DNA of 27,467 nucleotides, taken from positions 1-27,467 of IMG/VR virus record IMGVR_UViG_3300038309_000157; one strand, given 5' to 3'. Source of the stretch: a virus. A program made the translations under genes and the position numbers. Position 1 is the first letter of the stretch, and each line of letters starts with the position of its first letter. The notes below the pieces were generated by a model. The model ran no database searches and was not told the DNA's origin. It worked only from the letters and a program-made list of their open reading frames with translations. Shown piece after piece: positions 4,498 to 14,949 of this stretch.

Positions 4498-5925
4498 ATG
4501 TCAAGATTTAACACTACTTCCGAAGGTACTAAAACCGTAAATTTAGCAGGTGGACAAGCGTATAAGCAAACACCTGAATTAGAATTGGTTTCAATATTGC
4601 TTACTTCATTTGCAAATGACCAGTTTTATCGCTCATCTTCCGATACATTTGATACTTTAACGCAACTTATTTTAGTTTGTGATAAAGAGTTTGTTGCGAA
4701 AGCTGCAATTTATGCCAGGACTAAATTTGGAATGCGTTCTATATCTCATGTAGTTGCTTCTGAATTAGCAAAACATATTGTAGGCAATAAATGGGCAAAG
4801 GATTTCTACGAATCAATTGTTTACAGACCTGACGATATGATGGAAATTTTATCATATCACACCTCAAAAAATGGAAAAATACCGAATGCGATGAAAAAAG
4901 GTTTTGCAAAAGCATTCGATAAATTTGACCGTTATCAGTTAGCAAAATACAGAGGTGAAGGGAAAGGGTATAAATTGATTGATGTTGTCAATTTGGTTCA
5001 TCCTGTACCTGTCGAAAAAAATGCTGATGCAATTAACGCATTAGTTAATGGTGAATTAAAATCATTTGATACATGGGAATCTGAATTAACACGTGCTGGG
5101 CAAAATGCAACATCTGAAGAAGAAAAAGCTGATTTCAAGAAAGATGTTTGGGTAAAACTTGTAAGAGAACGTAAACTTGGATATTTTGCACTTTTGCGAA
5201 ACCTTAGAAATATTATCGAACAAGCACCTGAAGTTTTAAACGAAGCTCTTGAAATGCTGACAAATGAATCAATGATTAAAAAATCGTTGGTTTTGCCTTT
5301 TCGGTTTATTACTGCTTTTGATGAAATTCAGAAATTGAATAACGGAAGGATTGTTCGTGAAACTTTAATTGCTTTAAATAAGGCTGTTGATATTTCAATT
5401 GCAAACGTTCCCAAGTTTGACGGTGAAACATTGGTTGTTTTGGATGTTTCAGGTTCTATGTCTGGGAAACCTGCCGTAATTGGTTCTTTATTTTCTTCTG
5501 TATTGGTAAAATCAAACAATGCTGATTTTATGACATTTTCAGACATAGCGCAATACAGAAACGTTAATCCGATGGATTCTACAATTACAATTGCTAATTC
5601 ATTACGTTTTTCAATGGGTGGAACTAACTTTCAGGACATTTTCAGGGTTGCAAACAAAAAATATGACCGTATTGTGATTCTTTCGGATATGCAGGGGTGG
5701 ATAGGTCATTATTCGCCTGTAGCTGAATTTAACAATTGGAAACGAGTTACAGGAGCAAATCCTTTTGTTTATTCATTTGACCTTAATTCATACGGTAATA
5801 TGCAATTCCCAGAACAAAACGTTTTTTGTTTAGCTGGGTTATCTGATAAAGTTTTTGACATTATGAAACTTTTAGAACAAGATAAAAACGCGTTGGTTAA
5901 TGAAATTCGAAATATTTCATTTTGA
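4498..5925 (+). CDS. rsr: Ro60/Rsr protein (TROVE and vWA domains)
   Basis: 475 residues with the two Ro60 parts. About residues 10-300 form the all-helical TROVE ring that binds misfolded RNA ends in its central hole and Y RNAs on its outer face. Residues about 310-470 form a von Willebrand A domain with an intact metal site: DVSGS (Asp316, Ser318, Ser320), Thr376 in GGTNF and Asp397 in LSDMQG. In bacteria, Rsr with a Y RNA tethers the exoribonuclease PNPase and modifies RNA decay, and it is induced by stress. Three Y RNAs lie directly upstream, so a complete Ro/Y RNA unit is carried on what looks like a phage genome. Length and domain order are normal. The gene may have its own promoter at 4454. 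Confidence 0.95.
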   Translation: MSRFNTTSEGTKTVNLAGGQAYKQTPELELVSILLTSFANDQFYRSSSDTFDTLTQLILVCDKEFVAKAAIYARTKFGMRSISHVVASELAKHIVGNKWAKDFYESIVYRPDDMMEILSYHTSKNGKIPNAMKKGFAKAFDKFDRYQLAKYRGEGKGYKLIDVVNLVHPVPVEKNADAINALVNGELKSFDTWESELTRAGQNATSEEEKADFKKDVWVKLVRERKLGYFALLRNLRNIIEQAPEVLNEALEMLTNESMIKKSLVLPFRFITAFDEIQKLNNGRIVRETLIALNKAVDISIANVPKFDGETLVVLDVSGSMSGKPAVIGSLFSSVLVKSNNADFMTFSDIAQYRNVNPMDSTITIANSLRFSMGGTNFQDIFRVANKKYDRIVILSDMQGWIGHYSPVAEFNNWKRVTGANPFVYSFDLNSYGNMQFPEQNVFCLAGLSDKVFDIMKLLEQDKNALVNEIRNISF

Positions 5926-6237: not shown

Positions 6238-6676
6238 AGAAGTTTCAAGCGAATTTGATTGCTGTGATGATGAAAAATGTATTAAACAAACAAAAGCTGA
6301 TATTAGAAAACAATACGGAAAAGGCACTCATGTTGAAGAAGTATACTACGACAATAATGGAGACCATGAAAGTATTGAAATATGCTGCCAATGCGGTAAG
6401 CCGTTAAATGAGTGGTTAACTTGGTGTAATAGTGAGCTTGAATACATTGAGGAAAATAAACCCTGGACTCCTGAATTTATAAAAGAAGAAGGTTTTTTGA
6501 TTCACTGTATTTTTCAAAGTAGCCCAACAATGGATTGTAATATTTCTAACTATGCTAAAAATTATAGTGATAGATTAAAAAAAGCATTACAAAATAGAGA
6601 ACAATTTTTTCAGCGAATTGGAAATTTAGCACAATATATAATCGAAGCTGACTTTGCGTTCTTACATGGGGCATAA
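6227..6676 (+). CDS. Uncharacterised Cys-rich protein, 149 aa
   Basis: Starts at a GTG (MKNEEVSSEFDCCDDEKC); an in-frame stop lies eight codons upstream, so there is little choice. It contains CCDDEKC and ICCQCGKP, which look like a possible zinc ribbon near residues 10-65, and then an acidic helical region with further cysteines. I do not recognise a family. Its TAA stop falls inside the GCATAAC that opens the first attC-like hairpin at 6674, as is usual for integron cassette genes. No matching GTTATGC was found upstream, so the left border of this first cassette is uncertain. Confidence 0.6.
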   Translation: MKNEEVSSEFDCCDDEKCIKQTKADIRKQYGKGTHVEEVYYDNNGDHESIEICCQCGKPLNEWLTWCNSELEYIEENKPWTPEFIKEEGFLIHCIFQSSPTMDCNISNYAKNYSDRLKKALQNREQFFQRIGNLAQYIIEADFAFLHGA

Positions 6677-6764
6677 CGGGTTTCGGCTATGAAACGTAGC
6701 CAAATCACGAACTTTGAAATTTAGTAATAACCTGACATTGGATATGTTTTATGAGCCGATGTTA
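6674..6764 (+). repeat. attC-like hairpin P1
   Basis: TAAC (6674) to GTTA (6761-6764), 91 bp. The stem pairs TCGGCTATGAAACGTA with TATGTTTTATGAGCCGA; one base is unpaired on the 3' arm and two G-T pairs lie five bases apart. The 5' spacer between TAAC and stem is longer than the 3' spacer, as in the other P hairpins. It follows the stop of the 149-residue gene directly and contains no gene. Confidence 0.65.
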
Positions 6765-6779
6765 TAAACTGATAAAATT

Positions 6780-6962
6780 ATGGGGGCAAAAACGAAATTT
6801 AAAATAGATTACACTTGGAATAATAAAGAATTAGTAGATAGAGTTGAAAAACAATTATTAAATGAGGGTTGGGAAAAGACAAATTATAATTATCCTGCCG
6901 ATATTGATAATATAAAAACAGATGAAATATTTACCACTTGGTTTGAAAGAGAGTGGGAATAA
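6780..6962 (+). CDS. Cassette protein, 60 aa, unknown
   Basis: A small charged protein (MGAKTKFKIDYTWNNKELVD...), aromatic in its second half and without Cys, signal peptide or membrane span. It is not a known family to me. It fills the Q segment 6761-6979. The ends of that segment, GTTATAAACTGATAAAATTA and its near-perfect complement before 6979, fold together with a single TG/AA interruption. The ATG follows the left GTTA junction by only 16 bp, leaving no room for a promoter, so it depends on read-through transcription. Confidence 0.55.
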   Translation: MGAKTKFKIDYTWNNKELVDRVEKQLLNEGWEKTNYNYPADIDNIKTDEIFTTWFEREWE

Positions 6963-7055
6963 TTTTATTTGTTTATAACGCTTGGTGTTTGTTTAGTTTG
7001 CCAACCGAACTGAGACGAAATTAATTTGAAATACTAACATATAAATTTACGAGCT

Positions 7056-7343
7056 ATGGCTTTAAGCGAAATTGATAAATACCAAAGAAAATTAAAACGA
7101 CTTATTGAAAATGTGCCGCAAGGGTATAAAGTATGCTATGATGCGAGTGTGTGTGCGCTATATGTGGTTTCAAAAGATGCTGCATTTTTTGACACGGAAA
7201 ATTGGTCTGTATCTGTTAATTATCCTGGTGGCGGATGTCCTTTTGGTGCAACAAGTGGCATGACAAATGCAGATACAGGGAACGACAGAGACGAAATTGT
7301 TGGAGATTTTATCGAGGTAAACATGGAAGCCGCACAAAGGTAA
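7056..7343 (+). CDS. Cassette protein, 95 aa, unknown
   Basis: Begins MALSEIDKYQRKLKRLIENV, a basic amphipathic helix, followed by a strand-rich part with two cysteines (KVCYDASVCALYVV) and a Gly-rich loop (NYPGGGCPFGATSG). No family is recognised. It lies inside P segment 6976-7399, in the loop of a stem formed by 6985-7001 and 7376-7392 (17 nt, two G-T pairs). The gene is therefore enclosed by an attC-like stem; in a classical array it would lie between two such sites. Confidence 0.55.
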   Translation: MALSEIDKYQRKLKRLIENVPQGYKVCYDASVCALYVVSKDAAFFDTENWSVSVNYPGGGCPFGATSGMTNADTGNDRDEIVGDFIEVNMEAAQR

Positions 7344-7395
7344 TTGTGCGTTGGCTGTACGTTTTTTTGAAAAGCGCAAATTAAATAAACACTTT

Positions 7396-7475
7396 GTTAT
7401 GCCGCCGCAGGGTACGTTTTGCAACTGTAAAGTAATTTTTGACAGTTCAAATATCTTGCAAAAATGCGGCATAAC
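7396..7475 (+). repeat. 80-bp covarying hairpin Q4
   Basis: Exactly 80 bp, from GTTATGCCGC to GCGGCATAAC. It contains the shared block GGGTACGTTTTGC near its 5' end and GCAAAA near its 3' end, with an inner AACTGT/ACAGTT stem. It is one of three such elements (others at 8091 and 9296). It holds no gene. Its terminal variable bases TGCC/GGCA pair with each other and differ from the other two copies. Confidence 0.7.
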
Positions 7476-7574
7476 GGCCAGGTACATGCTTTCGTGGCGT
7501 TAAATTTGCACTGCCGTTTATTAATTGCTGAAAGTAGTTTTGTTTTCTTTTTTGGTGAGGGTTTTGAAAAATAA

Positions 7575-7632
7575 TTAAGTAAATACTTAAAATAATTCAC
7601 TTTTTTGATACAACATATTAAGTAAATGCTTA
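7575..7632 (+). promoter_or_regulatory. Twin dyad, likely operator of the HTH operon
   Basis: TTAAGTAAATACTTA (7575-7589, extended by one base into a 16-bp dyad) and TTAAGTAAATGCTTA (7618-7632) are near-identical symmetric words 43 bp apart, upstream of the gene at 7663. Two copies about four helical turns apart suit cooperative binding. The HTH protein encoded at 7847 is the obvious candidate ligand, by position only. Confidence 0.5.
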
Positions 7633-7662
7633 TATTTACGTATAATTTAAAACGAAAGCAAA

Positions 7663-7845
7663 ATGAACGCAACAGTACAAAATTTTCAGAACCAACAAAT
7701 TGAAAAAGCTAATTTCATAAAAGAAAAAGCAAACAAAGAAATCAAATCATTAGAAGAACAAATCAATGAATTGAAAGCACAAATTAATCAACAGAAAAAA
7801 GTGATAAAACAAGCTGAAAAAGATATTTACTATTATTCAATATAA
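7663..7845 (+). CDS. Small coiled-coil protein, 60 aa
   Basis: Nearly the whole chain is a predicted charged coiled coil, with Leu/Ile at heptad positions (KSLEEQINELKAQINQQKK). It has no cysteines and no membrane span. The stop is one base before the ATG of the next gene, which encodes an HTH protein, so the pair is co-translated. Small coiled-coil plus HTH pairs occur in toxin-antitoxin and regulatory modules, but neither protein is recognised as a specific member. The pair has its own upstream region with two dyads, and lies in the loop of P segment 7472-8094. Confidence 0.6.
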   Translation: MNATVQNFQNQQIEKANFIKEKANKEIKSLEEQINELKAQINQQKKVIKQAEKDIYYYSI

Positions 7846-7846
7846 T

Positions 7847-8059
7847 ATGACAATTAACGAACTCAAAAAAGAACTCGGCTTAACTAATACAGATTTAGCC
7901 GGGTTTTTTGGACTTTCTCCGGCTGCTTATGCCAACAGCAGCGCAAAGCCACGATATGAAGCTGCGCTGTGTAATTTTCATGCTGCCGTAAAATCCAAAA
8001 GCCAGGTATTGGCTAAGCAAAAAGAAAACAAAACGGGCAACCCCGAAACTGTTGATTAA
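7847..8059 (+). CDS. HTH (XRE-like) protein, 70 aa
   Basis: The N-terminal 50 residues read as a Cro/CI-like helix-turn-helix: 'INELKKELGLTNTDLAGFFG' followed by 'LSPAAYANSSAKPRYEAAL'. The second and third helices would give DNA contacts through the Asn/Ser/Arg-rich turn. The C-terminal tail is Lys-rich and polar. It follows the coiled-coil gene with a 1-bp gap. It may autoregulate through the dyads at 7575-7632. The HTH assignment rests on pattern only. Confidence 0.55.
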   Translation: MTINELKKELGLTNTDLAGFFGLSPAAYANSSAKPRYEAALCNFHAAVKSKSQVLAKQKENKTGNPETVD

Positions 8060-8090
8060 TTGCTATGAACAGCCATGAAGTATGTACATT

Positions 8091-8170
8091 GTTACCATGC
8101 CGAAGGGTACGTTTTGCGTACCATATTGTTGAAGCCAACAAAAAGGTTTCAACGCAAAATGCATGGTAAC
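8091..8170 (+). repeat. 80-bp covarying hairpin Q6
   Basis: Exactly 80 bp, from GTTACCATGC to GCATGGTAAC. It carries the shared block CCGAAGGGTACGTTTTGC and, near the 3' end, ACGCAAAAT. The inner stem is GTTGAA/TTTCAAC-like and unrelated in sequence to that of Q4. The terminal variable bases are CCAT/ATGG. No gene inside. Confidence 0.7.
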
Positions 8171-8214
8171 GTATGGGTATAAAAAGGCGTTTTAATGCTT
8201 TTTATACCGTGTTA
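8167..8214 (+). repeat. attC-like hairpin P4 (shortest)
   Basis: TAAC (8167) to GTTA (8211-8214), 48 bp. GGTATAAAAAG (8176-8186) pairs perfectly with CTTTTTATACC (8198-8208). It is the only P stem without the two G-T pairs. It directly precedes the methyltransferase cassette. Confidence 0.65.
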
Positions 8215-8304
8215 CCAACTGTATGAGCGACTTAAACGAACAAATGATTATTAACAGCACTGCACCTTTTTTATTTTGTGTGGTGGCAAAAATTGCGAAG
8301 CAAA

Positions 8305-9003
8305 ATGAATATAGAATTGATTAACAAAGATAGCTTTTTAGCTATAAGAGAATTAGAAGACAATAGTGTAGATTTAATTGTAACAGACCCCCCGTATGGT
8401 ATAAACTTTACTAAAGGATATAAAAGCGGAAGTAAAGAGCTTGTACACGGTGATGATGGTTTTTCTGTTATGGTTTTTGTAGATGAATTAATGCGAGAAT
8501 TTAACAGGATATTACGACCTAATGGGGCAGTTTATATATTTACAAGATTTGACGTTTACCCTTATTGGTGGCTAAAGATGAAAAACCACTTTGATACAAA
8601 AAACCAAATAATATGGTTTAAAGGCGGTGGAGGAATGGGTGACCTAAAGGGCAACTTCTCTTTTAATTACGAGAGTATAATTTACGCCACAAATGGGAAG
8701 CATAAAATAAGAGGTAAAAGAGATGGTAGCGTTTGGCAGATTGGAAAATGTAAACAAGAATACCACGAAACACAAAAACCTGTTGAACTTATTGAGAAAA
8801 TAATATTACATAGCTCTGATGAAGGAATGACAGTATTTGACCCTTTTATGGGTAGCGGAACAACTGGAATAGCTTGCCAAAGATTAAACAGAAACTTTAT
8901 AGGAATAGAAATGGTTGAATCCAATTTTGCGATAGCAAAAAAGAGGGTGGAAGAAAATAAAAAAGAATTAAATGCACCGACTTTATTTAACGCACCGAAC
9001 TAA
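8305..9003 (+). CDS. DNA adenine/cytosine-N4 methyltransferase, beta class
   Basis: From the ATG at 8305 (MNIELINKDSFLAIRELED) the protein has 232 residues. The motif order is TDPPYG (motif IV, catalytic) near residue 30, a target-recognition region, and then DPFMGSGTTG (motif I, AdoMet binding) near residue 180. This order defines the beta class of amino-methyltransferases. It would methylate DNA on adenine N6 or cytosine N4. No restriction enzyme is adjacent, so it is an orphan, probably protecting phage DNA or acting in regulation. The open frame extends to a GTG at 8278, but the ATG is the better start. A 33-codon frame (MSDLNEQMIINS, 8223-8324) overlaps the start and could be a leader. 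The gene lies in Q segment 8211-9021, whose ends are GTTACCAAC / GTTGGTAAC. Confidence 0.85.
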   Translation: MNIELINKDSFLAIRELEDNSVDLIVTDPPYGINFTKGYKSGSKELVHGDDGFSVMVFVDELMREFNRILRPNGAVYIFTRFDVYPYWWLKMKNHFDTKNQIIWFKGGGGMGDLKGNFSFNYESIIYATNGKHKIRGKRDGSVWQIGKCKQEYHETQKPVELIEKIILHSSDEGMTVFDPFMGSGTTGIACQRLNRNFIGIEMVESNFAIAKKRVEENKKELNAPTLFNAPN

Positions 9004-9017
9004 GCGAATATTGTTGG

Positions 9018-9299
9018 TAACGGGTTGGCTATGTTTAGTGCGATTTATTAACTACAAAATTTGATACGAGATGGAAAAAACAATTTTATTTAATGACTTC
9101 TGCGCAAACAAAAATTGCCCAGAATATATAGAATGGTATTTTGAAAACGGAGTATGTGAACAACCAATAGATTGTAAAAGTTGTAAACTGGTTGGACAAA
9201 GTTATGATGTAACTGAATATCCAGAAAATTGTTTGTTTTTGAATGACATACGGACTTACGAACGAGAGCAAAAGCAAGCATTAAATATAGCTGTTGTTA
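9018..9299 (+). repeat. attC-like stem P5 enclosing a gene start
   Basis: TAAC (9018-9021) to GTTA (9296-9299). GCTATGTTTAGTGC (9028-9041) pairs with GCATTAAATATAGC (9278-9291), with two G-T pairs five bases apart. The loop holds the first two-thirds of the Cys-rich gene at 9071, and the 3' arm of the stem is itself coding sequence. Confidence 0.6.
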
Positions 9300-9403
9300 G
9301 CGTGCCGAAGGGTACGGTTTTGCAACAGTCAAGTTTTCCTTTACTGTTGACGTTATTGCAAAACTGCACGCTAATGGTCGGGGTGTATGACGTGAGCACG
9401 TAG
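9071..9403 (+). CDS. Cys-rich small protein, probably zinc-binding, 110 aa
   Basis: Starts MEKTILFNDFCANKNCPEYI. Seven cysteines fall in the first 60 residues (FCANKNCP, VCEQPIDCKSCK, PENCLFL), arranged like a small zinc-binding domain. I recall similar short proteins in phage and cassette settings without a known role. From about residue 76 the frame runs through the 3' arm of stem P5 and then through the 80-bp hairpin Q10 (VPKGTVLQQSS...). The last 35 residues are therefore likely translation of a recombination element, not ancestral protein. A break or replacement of the native C-terminus is the simplest explanation. Confidence 0.55.
   Translation: MEKTILFNDFCANKNCPEYIEWYFENGVCEQPIDCKSCKLVGQSYDVTEYPENCLFLNDIRTYEREQKQALNIAVVSVPKGTVLQQSSFPLLLTLLQNCTLMVGVYDVST
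9296..9375 (+). repeat. 80-bp covarying hairpin Q10
   Basis: Exactly 80 bp, from GTTAGCGTGC to GCACGCTAAT (last base T instead of C). It has the shared block CCGAAGGGTACGGTTTTGC and the 3' TTGCAAAAC. The inner stem is AACAGT/ACTGTT. The terminal variable bases are GCGT/ACGC. It overlaps the 3' end of the Cys-rich gene. Confidence 0.7.
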
Positions 9404-9458
9404 CTTGCGGAGTGCGGAGAGTCATTCATCCAGATTGCTTGCGTTATACACCATGTTA
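9372..9458 (+). repeat. attC-like hairpin P6
   Basis: TAAT (9372) to GTTA (9455-9458), 87 bp. GGTGTATGACGTGAGCA pairs with the region before 9452 that ends CGTTATACACC, with G-T pairs five bases apart and one T-G pair. There is no gene inside. Confidence 0.6.
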
Positions 9459-9505
9459 AGGAATGTGCCGCAAGCTAATATGATTAACCTTTAATTGAAA
9501 TACAA

Positions 9506-9751
9506 ATGAAAACAGAAATTAAAAATTTTTATGAATGGCTTCAGAAAAGATGCCACATTAATTTACCAAAAGACAAAAGTTTCGATAGCTTATATAATGA
9601 ATTTTTAAATTCTGAGCAATCGGGTGAAGCCCCGACCATTAAGGAAAATGAGGACAAAAGAAAAATTTGCGACAGATACAATCATAGATGCGATGAAGCA
9701 TTTAATAAAGGAAAAGATTGCAGTACTTGTGTCTATTTTAATGAATTATAG
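9506..9751 (+). CDS. Cassette protein, 81 aa, unknown
   Basis: Begins MKTEIKNFYEWLQKRCHINL, an amphipathic helix, and ends with a Cys pattern (RCDEAFNKGKDCSTCVYF) suggestive of metal binding. There is no signal peptide. I do not recognise it. It fills Q segment 9455-9791. The ends of that segment, starting GTTAAGGAATGTGCCGC and ending GCGGCATTTTCCTTAAC, are complementary over some 20 bases with one TG/AA-type interruption. Confidence 0.55.
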   Translation: MKTEIKNFYEWLQKRCHINLPKDKSFDSLYNEFLNSEQSGEAPTIKENEDKRKICDRYNHRCDEAFNKGKDCSTCVYFNEL

Positions 9752-9787
9752 CAAATAGATTTGTCCGTCCGCTTGCGGCATTTTCCT

Positions 9788-9913
9788 TAACGTATGGCAG
9801 TATGGTTAGTTGGGGATTACGAGCCAATAACCTATCAATTTAGTACAAATTTTAAAACGAGTGAATATGCTTCAAAATACCGATAAAACCCCAATTAACT
9901 ATACTGCGTGTTG
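9788..9913 (+). repeat. attC-like hairpin P7
   Basis: TAAC (9788-9791) to GTTG (9910-9913), 126 bp. GCAGTATGGTTAGTTGGGG (9797-9815) pairs with CCCCAATTAACTATACTGC (9889-9907) along all 19 bases, with two G-T pairs five bases apart. It is the longest clean P stem without a gene in its loop. Confidence 0.7.
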
Positions 9914-9975
9914 TACGCTGGCGGACTTAACCCACCAACCTACAATCGAAGCACAAAAAATAAAAAAAGCGAAGC

Positions 9976-10716
9976 GTGGGAAAAAAAGAAACAATAGTAG
10001 TTTGGTTTAGTTGTGGCGCAGCTTCAGCAGTTGCCGCAAAAAAAACCGTTGACAAATACGGAAAGACACACAATGTTTTAATCGTAAACAATCCGATTAA
10101 AGAGGAAGACCCCGACAATATCCGATTTAAAAACGATATTGAAAAATGGATAGGGCAGCCAATAATTGAGGCTAAAAATAAAGATTACCCGAATGCTTCA
10201 ATCGTTGAGATATTTGAAAAGCGAAAATATATGTCAGGCATTTCCGGTGCTCCTTGTACGATGCTGTTGAAAAAAGAGGCACGATACCAGTTTGAACTTA
10301 CTCATGAAATTCACTGGCATGTACTTGGATTTACGGTTGACGAAATGCACCGGCACGAACGATTTGTAAGAGGAGAACGGGCAAATACTATTCCAGTGCT
10401 TATTGATGCTGGGTATACAAAAACAATGTGCTTCGATGAATTAGTAATGGCAGGAATAAAACTTCCGGCTATGTATGATAATTACGAGAATGCCAATTGC
10501 CCAGGTTGCGTAAAAGCGACCTCGCCAACTTATTGGAATACTGTGCGCCGGGTTCATCCAGAAGTTTACGAACAAAGAGCCGAACAAAGCGACAGATTAG
10601 GAGTGAAATTGGTTAGATACAAAGGCAAACGTATTTCGTTGCGAGAATTGCCGAAAAATGCCAAAGGGGGCAAAATACAAACTTATGAATGCGGAATATT
10701 TTGTGACAATTACTAA
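9976..10716 (+). CDS. PAPS reductase-like (adenine nucleotide alpha-hydrolase) protein
   Basis: 246 residues from a GTG start (MGKKETIVVWFSCGAASAVA). 'FSCGAASAV' replaces the SGGxDS-type PP-loop of the PAPS reductase / N-type ATP-pyrophosphatase fold, which binds the nucleotide phosphates. Further on are NCPGCVKAT and a C-terminal YECGIFC, so four cysteines could bind a metal or iron-sulfur cluster, as in DndC-like and tRNA-thiolation relatives. The family is common in phages and is usually annotated only as phosphoadenosine phosphosulfate reductase family; true PAPS reduction is unlikely without partner genes. The stop lies inside CTAACGG. The gene occupies Q segment 9910-10812 (ends GTTGTACGC / GCGTACAAC). 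Confidence 0.7.
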   Translation: MGKKETIVVWFSCGAASAVAAKKTVDKYGKTHNVLIVNNPIKEEDPDNIRFKNDIEKWIGQPIIEAKNKDYPNASIVEIFEKRKYMSGISGAPCTMLLKKEARYQFELTHEIHWHVLGFTVDEMHRHERFVRGERANTIPVLIDAGYTKTMCFDELVMAGIKLPAMYDNYENANCPGCVKATSPTYWNTVRRVHPEVYEQRAEQSDRLGVKLVRYKGKRISLRELPKNAKGGKIQTYECGIFCDNY

Positions 10717-10808
10717 CGGTTTTGAAAAAACCGATGCGGGCGGGGCTTTTTTTATTTTTCATCAAATTACCGATGAACTATCAACGAAGCACGAACCCCG
10801 CTTGCGTA

Positions 10809-11005
10809 CAACGGGATTCGGGTATGGTTTGATTTTTAACGGATTAAAAGCAATAAACTTATGAGTATTAACAAAAATGAATTAGCAAAAGCATTAGAGA
10901 TTCCTAAGCATTATTGGGAAGACCAATATTGGGATATGGTTGATAGCGAAAAACTTCTTGATTTTGTAAATCAGGTAGTTAAAAATTTAACTATACCCGA
11001 TGTTA
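10809..11005 (+). repeat. attC-like stem P8, arms partly coding
   Basis: CAAC (10809) to GTTA (11002-11005). The 5' arm reads TCGGGTATGGTTTGATTTTT after 10817, and the 3' arm ends CTATACCCGATGTTA, with about 20 of 23 positions paired, two G-T pairs and one T-T mismatch. The start of the gene at 10861 is in the loop and the 3' arm is inside that gene. Confidence 0.65.
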
Positions 11006-11163
11006 GCGGTTCGGTTTTATATAAAGGCTATAAAATTACTGAATCGCTGCAAGGATTTGACGTAAACGTGTATGACGGTGAAGAATGGAGACTTCTGTTT
11101 ACAAAGCCAGATGTAGATAAATGCAAGGACTTTATAGATAGGTTTCTGAAAACTGACCGCTAA
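10861..11163 (+). CDS. Cassette protein, 100 aa, apparent fusion across a junction
   Basis: The first 47 residues (MSINKNELAKALEIPKHYWE...) form helices and read like one small phage-type protein. The last 50 (YKGYKITESLQGFDVNVYDG...) read like the strand-rich part of another. The P8/Q16 junction GTTAGCGG (11002) lies exactly between them, at PDVSGS. The frame is open across the junction, so the two segments seem to have been joined in frame. The stop (TAA at 11161) is inside the next TAAC junction. No known family. The chimera reading is an inference; a native gene with a recombination site inside it would look the same. Confidence 0.55.
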   Translation: MSINKNELAKALEIPKHYWEDQYWDMVDSEKLLDFVNQVVKNLTIPDVSGSVLYKGYKITESLQGFDVNVYDGEEWRLLFTKPDVDKCKDFIDRFLKTDR

Positions 11164-11355
11164 CGGTTTAGGTATGTTTTGAAATTTTAACGGATAAATA
11201 GAACGAAATGAAAACAAACTTTGATAAATATAAGGAAATACTTGAATCAGCGATTTATGAAAATTGCGGGAATTATTACATTGGCGGTAAAGCATTACAG
11301 AAAGTTTTGGATATGCACAAAAGGCAGTTAAAATTTTTAAATATACCTTTTGTTA
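11161..11355 (+). repeat. attC-like stem P9, arms partly coding
   Basis: TAAC (11161-11164) to GTTA (11352-11355). AGGTATGTTTTGAAATTTT in the 5' arm pairs with AAAATTTTTAAATATACCT in the 3' arm, with two G-T pairs and one T-T mismatch at the same positions as in P8. The start of the next gene is in the loop. Confidence 0.65.
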
Positions 11356-11525
11356 ACACCCGTAATTGCCGCCTTGTGATGCTGCATGATTACAATGTAG
11401 TTAAATTGGAATGGAAAAGACCGCATACTTACATACGCTGTTTAATAGGCGGTTTTATATGGCGTTTTATGCCCGACCTAACATTTAAACACCGAAGATT
11501 CATGATTGTTGATTATGGGTGTTAA
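11208..11525 (+). CDS. Cassette protein, 105 aa, unknown, crosses a junction
   Basis: Begins MKTNFDKYKEILESAIYENC. The first 47 residues look like a normal soluble helix-rich protein. After the GTTAAC junction at 11352 the sequence turns basic and aromatic (KLEWKRPHTYIRCLIGGFIWR), and composition changes. As with the previous gene, the frame stays open across the P9/Q18 junction, and the TAA stop is inside the closing GGGTGTTAAC (11517-11526). It could be an in-frame fusion, or the second part may be fortuitous. No family recognised. Confidence 0.45.
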   Translation: MKTNFDKYKEILESAIYENCGNYYIGGKALQKVLDMHKRQLKFLNIPFVNTRNCRLVMLHDYNVVKLEWKRPHTYIRCLIGGFIWRFMPDLTFKHRRFMIVDYGC

Positions 11526-11576
11526 CTTGTAATTAAAGACAATAACTGTAATTAACTAATACTAAACTTATTAAAA

Positions 11577-12410
11577 ATGAATTTGACAGAATTAATTGAA
11601 CTTTATGTCACGGAACTAAATAATATTCCATCAATAAAATCAGATCAGACAACTAAAGGATACATTAGTGTCGTTCGCAAGTTTTACAGAGACAATAACA
11701 GAATATATCGAATGACGGAAGGTGATATCAAAAAATACATGTCACATATTAGAAAAGAATATTCTGATAGTTATTATAATGTAATTGGTTCTGCCGTTAA
11801 AATATTGTTTGAAAAAGTTCTAAAACAACCAAGAAAAATGATGTGGTTTTCTCCGATAAGAACTACTAAAAAATTCCACAACATCATAAGTTATTCTGAT
11901 TTTGTGCTTATGGGTAAATCATGTAAAAATTCGAAGCACAAACTAATTCTTGTATTACTATATTCTACCGGGATTAGGAGGCAGGAATTAATCGATATTA
12001 AATTAAAAGACATTGATTTTGTCAACAAGAGAATATTTATTCATTCTGCCAAAGGCGGCAAGAACAGGTTTGTAAGACTACATGACATTGCAGAAAAATA
12101 CTTGCTAAAATACCTAAAAGAATATCACCCATCAGAATACCTATTAAATGGACAAAAATCATTGAAATATTCAGGATCGAGTGTTTTTAATGTCATTAAG
12201 GATATTTCCGATAATAGATATCATCCACATGATATACGTCATACCTTTTTGACAAATTTAATCGAGCATGAAAATGTATTTGCAGCCCAGGATTATGCTG
12301 GACACAATTGTCTTAAATCTACTTTACATTATTATCACATTTCTTCGGATAAACTTAGAGAGATGTATAATCCATTAGACAAAATGATCTCCTCGAAAAG
12401 AATAGCATAA
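11577..12410 (+). CDS. Tyrosine recombinase (XerC/D-like integrase)
   Basis: 277 residues with a SAM-like N-terminal core-binding domain (about 1-90) and a catalytic domain with all active residues: Arg134 in GIRRQE, Lys near 159-162 in KGGKNR, His218 and Arg221 in HDIRH, His243 in AGH, and nucleophile Tyr252. It would cut and rejoin DNA strands via a 3'-phosphotyrosine. Only about 54 residues separate the Lys hairpin from HDIR, so the extra helix and ALER motif of integron integrases are absent. It could serve phage integration, or act on the cassette array that ends 50 bp upstream, or both. The 11526-11560 interval carries two copies of TGTAATTAA that could be arm-type sites. Confidence 0.85.
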   Translation: MNLTELIELYVTELNNIPSIKSDQTTKGYISVVRKFYRDNNRIYRMTEGDIKKYMSHIRKEYSDSYYNVIGSAVKILFEKVLKQPRKMMWFSPIRTTKKFHNIISYSDFVLMGKSCKNSKHKLILVLLYSTGIRRQELIDIKLKDIDFVNKRIFIHSAKGGKNRFVRLHDIAEKYLLKYLKEYHPSEYLLNGQKSLKYSGSSVFNVIKDISDNRYHPHDIRHTFLTNLIEHENVFAAQDYAGHNCLKSTLHYYHISSDKLREMYNPLDKMISSKRIA

Positions 12411-13503: not shown

Positions 13504-13591
13504 TTTTTTTGAGTTGATTATAAATTCGTATATAAACACCTGCACAAAGCAGGATTAAAATTGATAAGTATGTAAGTAGAATCGTTGTCAT
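13487..13591 (-). CDS. Single-helix membrane peptide, 34 aa
   Basis: A 34-residue frame, MTTILLTYLSILILLCAGVY and then a basic, polar tail (IRIYNQLKKNEKDN). Residues about 3-20 form one membrane helix, with the charged C-terminus outside or in the cytoplasm. Its ATG overlaps the TGA stop of the endolysin gene (ATGA), and its own end overlaps the next start by 17 bp. Such tight coupling is strong evidence for a real gene despite its size. It could be a small holin, antiholin or spanin-like component. The endolysin has no signal peptide, so some membrane protein must release it. Confidence 0.55.
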   Translation of the reverse strand: MTTILLTYLSILILLCAGVYIRIYNQLKKNEKDN

Positions 13592-14949
13592 ATCTTTCTT
13601 AATTTTCGATAACCTAAAACATTTAAACTGTCATATAGCGAGATTTTAACCTCGTTGCTTTGATTTCCACCAAGTACATAGATAAGATCTGTTTTTCCGT
13701 GTTCAACTGTCAATGGAGCGATATAAATTGCCACGTGCCCGCTCCATGTATTATTTCCACGTTTGAAAATTACAATGTCGCCAGTTTGTGGGTTATCCGT
13801 TTTTTCGCCCACATCGAGCCAGCTTCGAGCGTTTGCTTTATGTGTTCGTTCAACTCCGGCTTTCATGGCACACCAATCCATAAAAATAGAACAGTTGCCT
13901 GTTTGATATATTGTTCCATTAAGATCTCTAACAACTATTTTTCCAGAAGGAACAGTTAAACAATAAAGGACATCATTATATTTAACATTTTCAATTCCTT
14001 TTTTAGTTATATATCTATTTTTATTTTTAGAAATATACACACTATGAAGATATTCTATTTTTGTATTTTTACTTACCTGTTTTGTGGAATATTGAGAGCT
14101 TTTATACCCGGCCATAGTCGCCACATAATGTAAAATCTCTTGTGTTTCTTTCCATTGTGAATATACTTCATTAATACCATTCCCATCAAATAGTAAATAT
14201 GTATCAATAAACAATTTACATTGTCTTTGTGATAATTTCATAATAAAATCCCATTTTGGAATTTTATTCTCCAATAATATATTATCAAAAATGATGGGAT
14301 ATCTAAATGAATACCTGGTTCTTAATTTTCTATTTCCCCATGTTTTTGAATCTTCCTTAATTTTTAATGTATCCATTTTATTCATAAAATTTTTCTTTCT
14401 TTCTTTGGATACACCCACATATATTAGATTAAACTGTTTTCTTCCGTCTGAAATATAAATAGCTAATAATTTCAATAATTCATCAGATATATCAAAGTCT
14501 GATTGCGATGATTTAATTGGAGGAATGCCAATGCCTGAATTTGTAATATCTTTAATTTTCTTCTTTTTGAACCTATAACTTCCGTCACATTTTCCATAAA
14601 ACTCATGATCTGGATCACAAATAATATTCATATTGCCACTTGTGATTTTTTTAGCAATTCCATTATATGATTTTTCAACAATACCAAATATATTAGTAAA
14701 TTGAACAAATTCATTCGAATCCACCATTGCAACTTTTGATGGTATCTTTTTAGAAATTTCATTTAATTTAATAAATCCATCAGACGTAAGCACTTCAATA
14801 TTGCCGTCAAGGCACCAAGGGGTTTCATCATCGTTTACCCAAGTATGACCCGCTTCTTTAGCATATCCTACAATTGTCTGATTGTCGTTCTCACCGGCAA
14901 TCTCTTTTACTCCATATTGGCTTAATGCAATTTCTACCAAATTACTCAT
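13588..14949 (-). CDS. Cysteine peptidase/amidase endolysin (TIGR02594-like) with intein
   Basis: The 453-residue precursor has an N-terminal extein (1-45), an intein (46-352) and a C-terminal extein (353-453). The joined 146-residue product resembles the TIGR02594 group of NlpC/P60- or CHAP-like peptidoglycan hydrolases. It contains DETPWC with catalytic Cys (residue 353 of the precursor), WCAMKAG, ARSW, PQTGDIVIFKR, SGHVAIYI with catalytic His405, and VLGGNQSN with polar residue Asn429. It would cut host peptidoglycan peptides or the amide bond at lysis. Until the intein is removed the active site is split, so the enzyme should be inactive. The gene overlaps its neighbours on both sides by ATGA, between a membrane/coiled-coil protein and a small membrane peptide. 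Confidence 0.85.
   Translation of the reverse strand: MSNLVEIALSQYGVKEIAGENDNQTIVGYAKEAGHTWVNDDETPWCLDGNIEVLTSDGFIKLNEISKKIPSKVAMVDSNEFVQFTNIFGIVEKSYNGIAKKITSGNMNIICDPDHEFYGKCDGSYRFKKKKIKDITNSGIGIPPIKSSQSDFDISDELLKLLAIYISDGRKQFNLIYVGVSKERKKNFMNKMDTLKIKEDSKTWGNRKLRTRYSFRYPIIFDNILLENKIPKWDFIMKLSQRQCKLFIDTYLLFDGNGINEVYSQWKETQEILHYVATMAGYKSSQYSTKQVSKNTKIEYLHSVYISKNKNRYITKKGIENVKYNDVLYCLTVPSGKIVVRDLNGTIYQTGNCSIFMDWCAMKAGVERTHKANARSWLDVGEKTDNPQTGDIVIFKRGNNTWSGHVAIYIAPLTVEHGKTDLIYVLGGNQSNEVKISLYDSLNVLGYRKLRKI
13894..14814 (-). mobile_element. Intein with LAGLIDADG-type endonuclease
   Basis: 307 residues, from Cys46 to Asn352 of the precursor. It starts CLDGNIEVLTSDG (block A) and has CDPDHEFYG (block B, residues 111-119). 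Two endonuclease-like motifs follow: LLAIYISDG (161-169) and KLFIDTYLLFDG (245-256). It ends VLYCLTVPSGKIVV...GTIYQTGN (blocks F and G) before Cys353. The penultimate residue is Gly, where His is usual, which may slow Asn cyclisation. The first LAGLIDADG motif keeps its acidic Asp168; the second has Asp255. The endonuclease would spread the intein into empty lysin alleles. Confidence 0.88.

Follow-up and report, generated by a model that had tools for sequence, protein, structure and literature searches.

The question raised by the DNA analysed here (the window, i.e. the entire 27,467-base IMG/VR virus record IMGVR_UViG_3300038309_000157) is what kind of element is formed by a row of abutting, hairpin-bounded segments which ends shortly before the gene of a tyrosine recombinase. 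Integrons are thought to depend on the integrase IntI, whose specific additional domain is treated as a defining trait (Ghaly et al. 2022, PMC9668308), and complete ones are called rare in Bacteroidetes, IntegronFinder 2.0 having found one in Bacteroidetes proper only in Salinibacter ruber (PMC9024848). The region studied behaves as an integron in all comparative tests, yet it fails those which define an IntI integron. It is best read as a cassette platform of its own kind, integron-like but not a standard integron, which occurs in Bacteroidota and in their phages. Very probably, it consists of nine cassettes, each composed of one P and one Q segment, with the end of Q9 facing an attI-like site and the recombinase gene belonging to the system.

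The extent of the array was determined by an alternating-chain search over the whole window in which a P edge was required to run from TAAC to GTTA and to contain an inner stem whose left spacer is the longer one, and a Q edge to run from GTTA to TAAC and to have complementary ends. The search returns 18 alternating segments, P1 to Q9, with a chain score of about 248, while the best of 60 dinucleotide shuffles reaches 65 with seven elements and the reverse strand 64. Two weak links after position 11523 were rejected as chance. The segment boundaries are identical to those of an earlier reading made from the letters alone (the sequence-only reading), whose overall span of 6671-11526 is to be given exactly as 6674-11526. 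TAAC or GTTA, which that reading had placed at all junctions, is present at most of them, the exceptions being TAAT at 9372, GTTG at 9910 and CAAC at 10809. Its further statements that all genes point in the same direction and that the ends of each Q match one another are borne out: all plausible cassette open reading frames (ORFs) lie on the + strand, and the Q ends in the window pair with their own partner over at least eight positions. Across all arrays, a Q end agrees with its own partner at 8.75 of nine positions compared to 5.7 of nine with the end of the next cassette. Since no partner for the GGGGCATAAC end of P1 was found to the left of this segment, P1 constitutes the distal end of the array. 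The array is thus made up of nine P+Q units running from the distal P1 to Q9, which stops 50 bp before the recombinase gene.

Evidence that array and recombinase form a unit comes from related contigs. A motif search with the hairpins of Q2, Q3 and Q5 led to contig L009, in which a similar array of some ten or more convincing segments is followed, in the same arrangement, by a recombinase of the same kind; contig L003 displays the same order. Six of the ten motif matches (L002, L004, L005, L007, L008, L010) are, by their appearance, chance matches within genes, and a later chain in L011 was likewise rejected as chance. With the window recombinase as query, no relatives were returned from the viral contigs because its sequence is too divergent, while the viral search with the L009 recombinase yielded 80 loci. 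Linkage was assigned where the chain upstream on the same strand exceeded every control (other strand, other side, shuffles) more than 1.5-fold. On this basis, an array lies directly 5' of the recombinase, its P sites on the strand of the gene, in 40 of the 46 distinct viral loci offering at least 2 kb of upstream sequence, and the last Q mostly ends 33-100 bp ahead of the recombinase. In bacterial genomes, mostly of Bacteroidota, the array is located 3' of the gene and runs on the opposite strand, as seen in 19 of the 30 loci for which 3 kb or more of downstream sequence was available; this arrangement is repeated in a second bacterial sample, e.g. in L263, L264, L273, L275, L296 and L299. 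Flavobacterium saccharophilum DSM 1811, with 17 segments in 10 kb, Gillisia limnaea and Maribacter provide chromosomal examples. The array has the same end turned towards the recombinase in phages and in chromosomes. Arrays adjoin most of the recombinase relatives checked, and such a relative (E up to 1e-38) is encoded in 120 of 395 sampled Bacteroidota genomes. Among cultured phages, the P sites of Polaribacter phage Leef_1 reach up to its integrase gene, and Polaribacter phage P12002L carries P sites of the same type.

The P sites were characterised by means of an alignment of 46 sites, all taken from contigs other than the window, from which a covariance model (R1) was built. The stem comprises 19 pairs, 17 of which show changes on both sides, while all 46 sites agree in one G.T pair and one T-A pair. 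Only these two pairs and the YAAC/GTTR boxes are fixed; P and Q stems otherwise vary and covary and, hence, do not match the fixed-sequence dif-like sites of XerCD-dif/pdif systems. Within the window and on its + strand, R1 recognises P7 (9788..9913), a typical site of 126 nt, with 95.4 bits and an E-value of 4.3e-20, followed by P1 (6674..6764; 43.7 bits, E 4.7e-08), the short, 48-nt P4 (8167..8214; 34 bits, E 8.6e-06), P8 (10809..11005; 24.5 bits, E 0.0014), P6 (9372..9458; 23.6 bits, E 0.0023) and P9 (11161..11355; 18.9 bits, E 0.029), all of them below 0.03. In addition, it weakly picks the starts of P5 (9018..9299; match from 9018, E 0.07) and P2 (6976..7399; match from 6976, E 0.84), which amounts to eight of the nine P hairpins. 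The de novo model which the sequence-only reading had proposed as a check thus scores far above background. With default filters R1 missed the sites of Leef_1 and P12002L; both appear once the filters are switched off. Gammaproteobacterial IntI loci yielded little with R1.

The recombinase itself (11577..12410, + strand, 277 amino acids) contains the catalytic residues R134, K159, H218, R221, H243 and Y252, and this R-K-H-R-H-Y set is invariant in 42 sequences. Its best profile match is NF040815, entitled "site-specific tyrosine recombinase/integron integrase", with a score of 130 compared to a cut-off of 220, whereas the score against the IntI profile TIGR02249 amounts to 85.7 bits compared to a cut-off of 265, which the family as a whole does not reach either. 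The alignment with IntI4 (2a3v) covers residues 24-181 only, and the 59 residues between the aligned blocks of IntI4 are reduced to about 17 in a family member (L169). In the phylogenetic tree, 11 IntI sequences form one clade (100/99) and 22 phage recombinases including that of the window a separate one (96/84); the root of this tree is unusable since the intended Xer outgroup (L186) sits on an extreme branch, probably due to a wrong frame or strand. The recombinase located 50 bp past the array had been taken to be of non-IntI type, and indeed it lacks the IntI-specific insert and falls outside the IntI clade. The predicted fold is that of a simple two-domain tyrosine recombinase, with XerA (5hxy) giving the best E-value and IntI4 close behind. 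Both profile and fold recall XerA and simple Xer-like recombinases. XerA, however, acts on double-stranded dif sites, while the present family is associated with arrays of hairpin-bearing cassettes. It is the presumed catalyst of cassette recombination at the P sites.

The sequence-only reading had likened the region to a cluster of attC sites lacking an integron integrase (CALIN). In this case, ordinary IntI cassettes acquired by the phage would be served by an IntI of the host, and the neighbouring recombinase would be unrelated to them. Several observations are in favour of this explanation. The ends of the P sites resemble canonical attC sites (YAACG...TGTTR), and R1 picks a few attC sites of Bacteroidota IntI arrays (best E 1e-05). 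True IntI, i.e. a TIGR02249 match over the cut-off, is encoded by 104 of the 390 Bacteroidota genomes sampled, a proportion far above that of published complete-genome surveys. Furthermore, Qi et al. (2023, PMC9892861) described phage CALINs and demonstrated that IntI1 recombines attC sites of phages, one of them from P12002L. Opposed to this are the linkage of array and recombinase as a conserved pair in dozens of loci (40 of the 46 viral ones) and the following results. A covariance model built from 17 IntI attC sites of Bacteroidota (R2) recognises gammaproteobacterial attC sites with E-values down to 4e-06, whereas in the window it yields only two marginal matches (E 0.06 with 15.2 bits, and E 0.5), and in related arrays occasional weak ones. 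An attC model, the other check suggested beforehand, responds only marginally, although its two matches coincide exactly with P4 and P1 and have the correct strand. The GTTRRRY core is present in none of the nine Q starts of the window, in 32 of 328 from phages and in nine of 149 from chromosomes, which is about chance; since it fits only ten of 49 in Bacteroidota IntI arrays, it is a weak criterion in that phylum. Finally, F. saccharophilum (G006) harbours an array, and no match to TIGR02249 was found in it at E up to 1e-70. On balance, we regard the CALIN explanation as improbable. The Q stems of more than 7 bp, which had been listed as a departure from integrons, do not qualify as such because IntI integrons of Bacteroidota have them too.

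The sequence-only reading had further known of no standard description of such an array in a phage. This requires some qualification, as the phage CALINs reported in 2023 include P12002L, whose array is of the type found in the window. The two descriptions agree in the presence of attC-like sites in phage genomes and in methyltransferase cargo. However, those clusters were read as integrase-free, while the present array adjoins its own non-IntI recombinase. A search of the open-access literature, which did not extend to subscription papers and preprints, brought up no description of such an array with a non-IntI recombinase acting on it, and priority is hence not established. We would like to note that P12002L (L305, KR136259) shows six or more R1 sites, with E-values up to 0.002, which surround several genes of DNA methyltransferases and all lie on one strand, in contrast to the divergent directions of attC sites given by Qi et al.

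As to mobility, an all-against-all comparison revealed P+Q units which are identical or nearly so although their neighbours are unrelated. Nucleotide homology sets in at the YAAC with which P starts and stops at the YAAC with which Q ends; P and Q stay together. Whole units therefore move, with breaks exactly at YAAC, and hairpins do not move independently of genes, the behaviour which had been named beforehand as refuting an integron-like array. Units are exchanged between contigs (e.g. L035/L058/L059, L048/L090 and L051/L087) and duplicated within contigs (L052, L099, L154 and L169). In each of L052, L099 and L154, the cassette next to the recombinase has a second copy further inside the array, and in L058 and L296 the proximal cassette is a copy of one found on other contigs. 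The sequence following the proximal YAAC is not a P site: about 40 phages have TAACTAnTATATATA at this place, and the corresponding sequence of several chromosomes starts with a short inverted repeat. Proximal copies combined with a leader other than P are the pattern predicted by insertion at an attI site. Judged by sequence only, the leader beside the recombinase gene is thus a putative attI-like insertion site. In the window, it corresponds to 11523..11576 on the + strand (TAACTTGTAATTAAAGACAATAACTGTAATTAAC..), the position of the TAACTAnTATATATA leader of related phages.

The same leader could be considered an attP, which would make the recombinase a lysogeny integrase of the phage and the array a variable gene region whose hairpins are otherwise employed. 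In fact, relatives of the recombinase are annotated as integrases in Leef_1 and Ingeline, which the paper on these phages interprets as indicating that they are temperate, the conserved leader is situated at a possible attP position, and Ingeline_1 possesses a related integrase without a clear array. Yet, members of this family are also found next to arrays in bacterial chromosomes, and cassette copies stop exactly at the TAAC of the leader. We accordingly hold this explanation to be even somewhat less probable than a CALIN. Lysogenic integration and cassette recombination could coexist in one recombinase.

The P sites are asymmetric, which bears on the nature of the folded molecule. At least one position at which a G of the left arm faces a T of the right arm occurs in 405 of 412 P sites. 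Eight of the nine sites in the window have at least two such positions, mostly five apart, and P4 has one. Phage cassette genes lie on the P strand, i.e. point towards the recombinase, in 215 of 218 clear cases, while chromosomal ones lie opposite to it and point away from the recombinase in 129 of 135. As the strand asymmetry of P is independent of the direction of transcription, folding of DNA is favoured over a structure in RNA and provides the better explanation for the conserved asymmetry. Conceivably, the hairpins might act in RNA as terminators, attenuators or processing sites, with the units being spread by homologous recombination; in favour of this, the P hairpins of phages are on the coding strand, between or within genes. 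In chromosomes, however, the P strand is antisense to the genes (129:6), so that in transcripts the conserved G.T pairs would be replaced by C.A mismatches. Moreover, the breaks are found at the 4-nt YAAC and not inside shared sequence, and an Rfam scan of the window matched no family. An action in RNA is hence very unlikely. Although short inverted repeats are common at the 34% GC of the window, chance palindromes in an AT-rich phage are refuted by the chain score, far beyond that of any shuffle, and by the E-value of 4e-20 obtained with the independent model, and can practically be dismissed.

The proposal made from the outset, an integron-like array in which the P segments act as attC-like sites and the Q ends as partners resembling R' and R'' and which lies on a phage-like contig, is borne out. 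Shared with IntI integrons, the sedentary chromosomal ones of Bacteroidota included, are cassettes of one direction, attC-like hairpins with YAACG...TGTTR ends on one strand, mutually complementary Q ends, a recombinase and an attI-like site at the end, and proximal insertion. The differences are that the present recombinase lacks the IntI-specific insert and falls outside the IntI clade, the GTTRRRY core is absent, genes are possible in the P loop and phage genes face the recombinase. Furthermore, the G.T wobbles which are invariant in P sites take the place of the unpaired bases near GTCC in the IntI attC sites of Bacteroidota. The P sites may be described as attC-like, related to attC in design and perhaps by descent, yet distinguishable from it. 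In IntI loci of Bacteroidota, the arrays are mostly 5' of intI, and their attC sites have the ends YAACG...GTTA in common with P. In Treponema integrons (PMC3607928), intI is transcribed towards attI, the same orientation as in the chromosomal Bacteroidota version described here. Treponema, however, uses a true IntI, while the phage version has the usual divergent placement of the recombinase with reversed genes.

We consider it fairly probable, with less assurance than in the case of the region itself, that a second, non-IntI integron-like system is widespread in Bacteroidota and their phages, in which folded DNA is recognised by invariant G.T wobbles instead of unpaired bases, gene polarity in phages is reversed towards the recombinase, along with the phage operon, and genes may occupy either arc of the circle. 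In the mechanism proposed for the region itself, a cassette would transiently exist as a circle consisting of two halves (arcs) joined at a long hairpin with imperfect pairing. The P strand would fold as single-stranded DNA, and the recombinase would read the folded stem via the end boxes (YAACG...TGTTR) and the fixed G.T wobbles. After cutting within the YAAC box, the cassette would be joined to the attI-like site adjacent to the recombinase gene, so that new cassettes would enter proximally and push older ones away. Single-stranded DNA is the presumed substrate, and the exact position of the cut is likewise a prediction. With the circle divided into two arcs by the hairpin, either arc may contain a gene, which would account for genes in "attC loops".

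Several observations weigh against this platform reading. Six of the 46 viral loci are without a clear array at the threshold used, and many chromosomal relatives of the recombinase are without an array. The examples of exchange stem from relatives; the window itself shows only partial homology to cassettes of L009, with the regions P3-Q3 and P7-Q7 being 73-80% alike to parts of them. The recombinase of the window is on a long branch and shares 27-36% identity with other members, and the attI-like sequence of the window departs from the consensus. In view of this long branch and the divergent site, the copy of the system in the window could be degenerate, although we infer that it is active. 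The window is, moreover, a fragment of 27 kb. Finally, both the excision circle and the reaction are predicted.

The segments of the array, all on the + strand, differ in the position of their genes. Q1 (6761..6979), with 21-nt ends which are 90% complementary, is the gene arc of cassette 1 (ORF 6780-6962). As noted in the sequence-only reading, genes are also found inside P loops, namely in P2, P3 and P5: The loop of P2 holds a 95-residue ORF (7056-7343), that of P3 (7472..8094) two small ORFs (7663-7845 and 7847-8059), similar to a correspondingly placed P of L009 which also contains small ORFs, while ORF 9071-9403 starts in the loop of P5. The Q segments adjoining these three are ORF-less hairpins, i.e. 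Q2 (7396..7475) with a CCGCAGGGTACGTTTTGC motif, Q3 (8091..8170), which is common to L009 and L011 with different segments following, and Q5 (9296..9375) with a CCGAAGGGTACG motif and the right end TAAT. The ORF-less Q hairpins, those of L003, L009 and L011 included, have CCGMAGGGTACG and TTTTGC/GCAAAA in common, and in the window cassettes with Q hairpins of the CCGMAGGGTACG type the gene sits in the P arc. Q4 (8211..9021) is the gene arc of an N6/N4 DNA methyltransferase (ORF 8278-9003), Q6 (9455..9791), with 21-nt complementary ends, that of ORF 9506-9751, and Q7 (9910..10812) that of a PAPS-reductase-like protein (ORF 9976-10716). Q7 has its ends and the P site in common with a cassette of L009 (minus strand, about 5185-4305) which contains a different gene, a DNA methyltransferase, between them, as if the cargo had been replaced inside the cassette frame. 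Two ORFs span P and Q. ORF 10861-11163 begins in the loop of P8 and continues through Q8 (11002..11164), its TAA stop being that of the TAAC boundary, and ORF 11208-11525 begins in the loop of P9 and extends into the recombinase-proximal arc Q9 (11352..11526), the ends of which are complementary over 15 nt at 93%. That the TAA of a TAAC boundary doubles as the stop codon of cassette or flanking ORFs is seen at 11161-11163, 6674-6676 and others. Cassette cargo is mostly unassigned (13 Pfam families in 150 ORFs, with DNA methyltransferases most frequent); for the cassette ORFs of the window, the methyltransferase excepted, no relatives were found in the fetched loci.

Apart from methyltransferase, PAPS-reductase-like protein and recombinase, the genes of the window encode a tape measure protein and a baseplate hub protein/tail lysozyme. 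Terminase profiles match only part of the viral contigs, so that the designation as phage leans partly on the IMG/VR classification and on the cultured phages. The baseplate hub protein (13588-14949, - strand) comprises a CHAP domain and, at residues 61-335, a weak match to an intein-splicing domain which is under the Pfam cut-off. At 4498-5925 (+ strand) a TROVE (Ro60-like) RNA-binding protein is encoded (Pfam E 3e-19); given the lack of any Rfam match in the window, no known Y-RNA-like partner is seen for it.

If the proposed reading is true, cassette capture would proceed via a simple Xer-like recombinase and would not be tied to IntI. This would account for many clusters of small "hypothetical" genes in Bacteroidota and their phages, and phages would gain a reservoir of genes for exchange, including those of DNA methyltransferases. 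The G.T wobble as opposed to the unpaired base, together with the reversed gene polarity, represents a natural contrast for studies of strand choice. Cultured hosts and phages (Leef_1, P12002L and F. saccharophilum DSM 1811) make the system testable, with Leef_1 being a natural test system.

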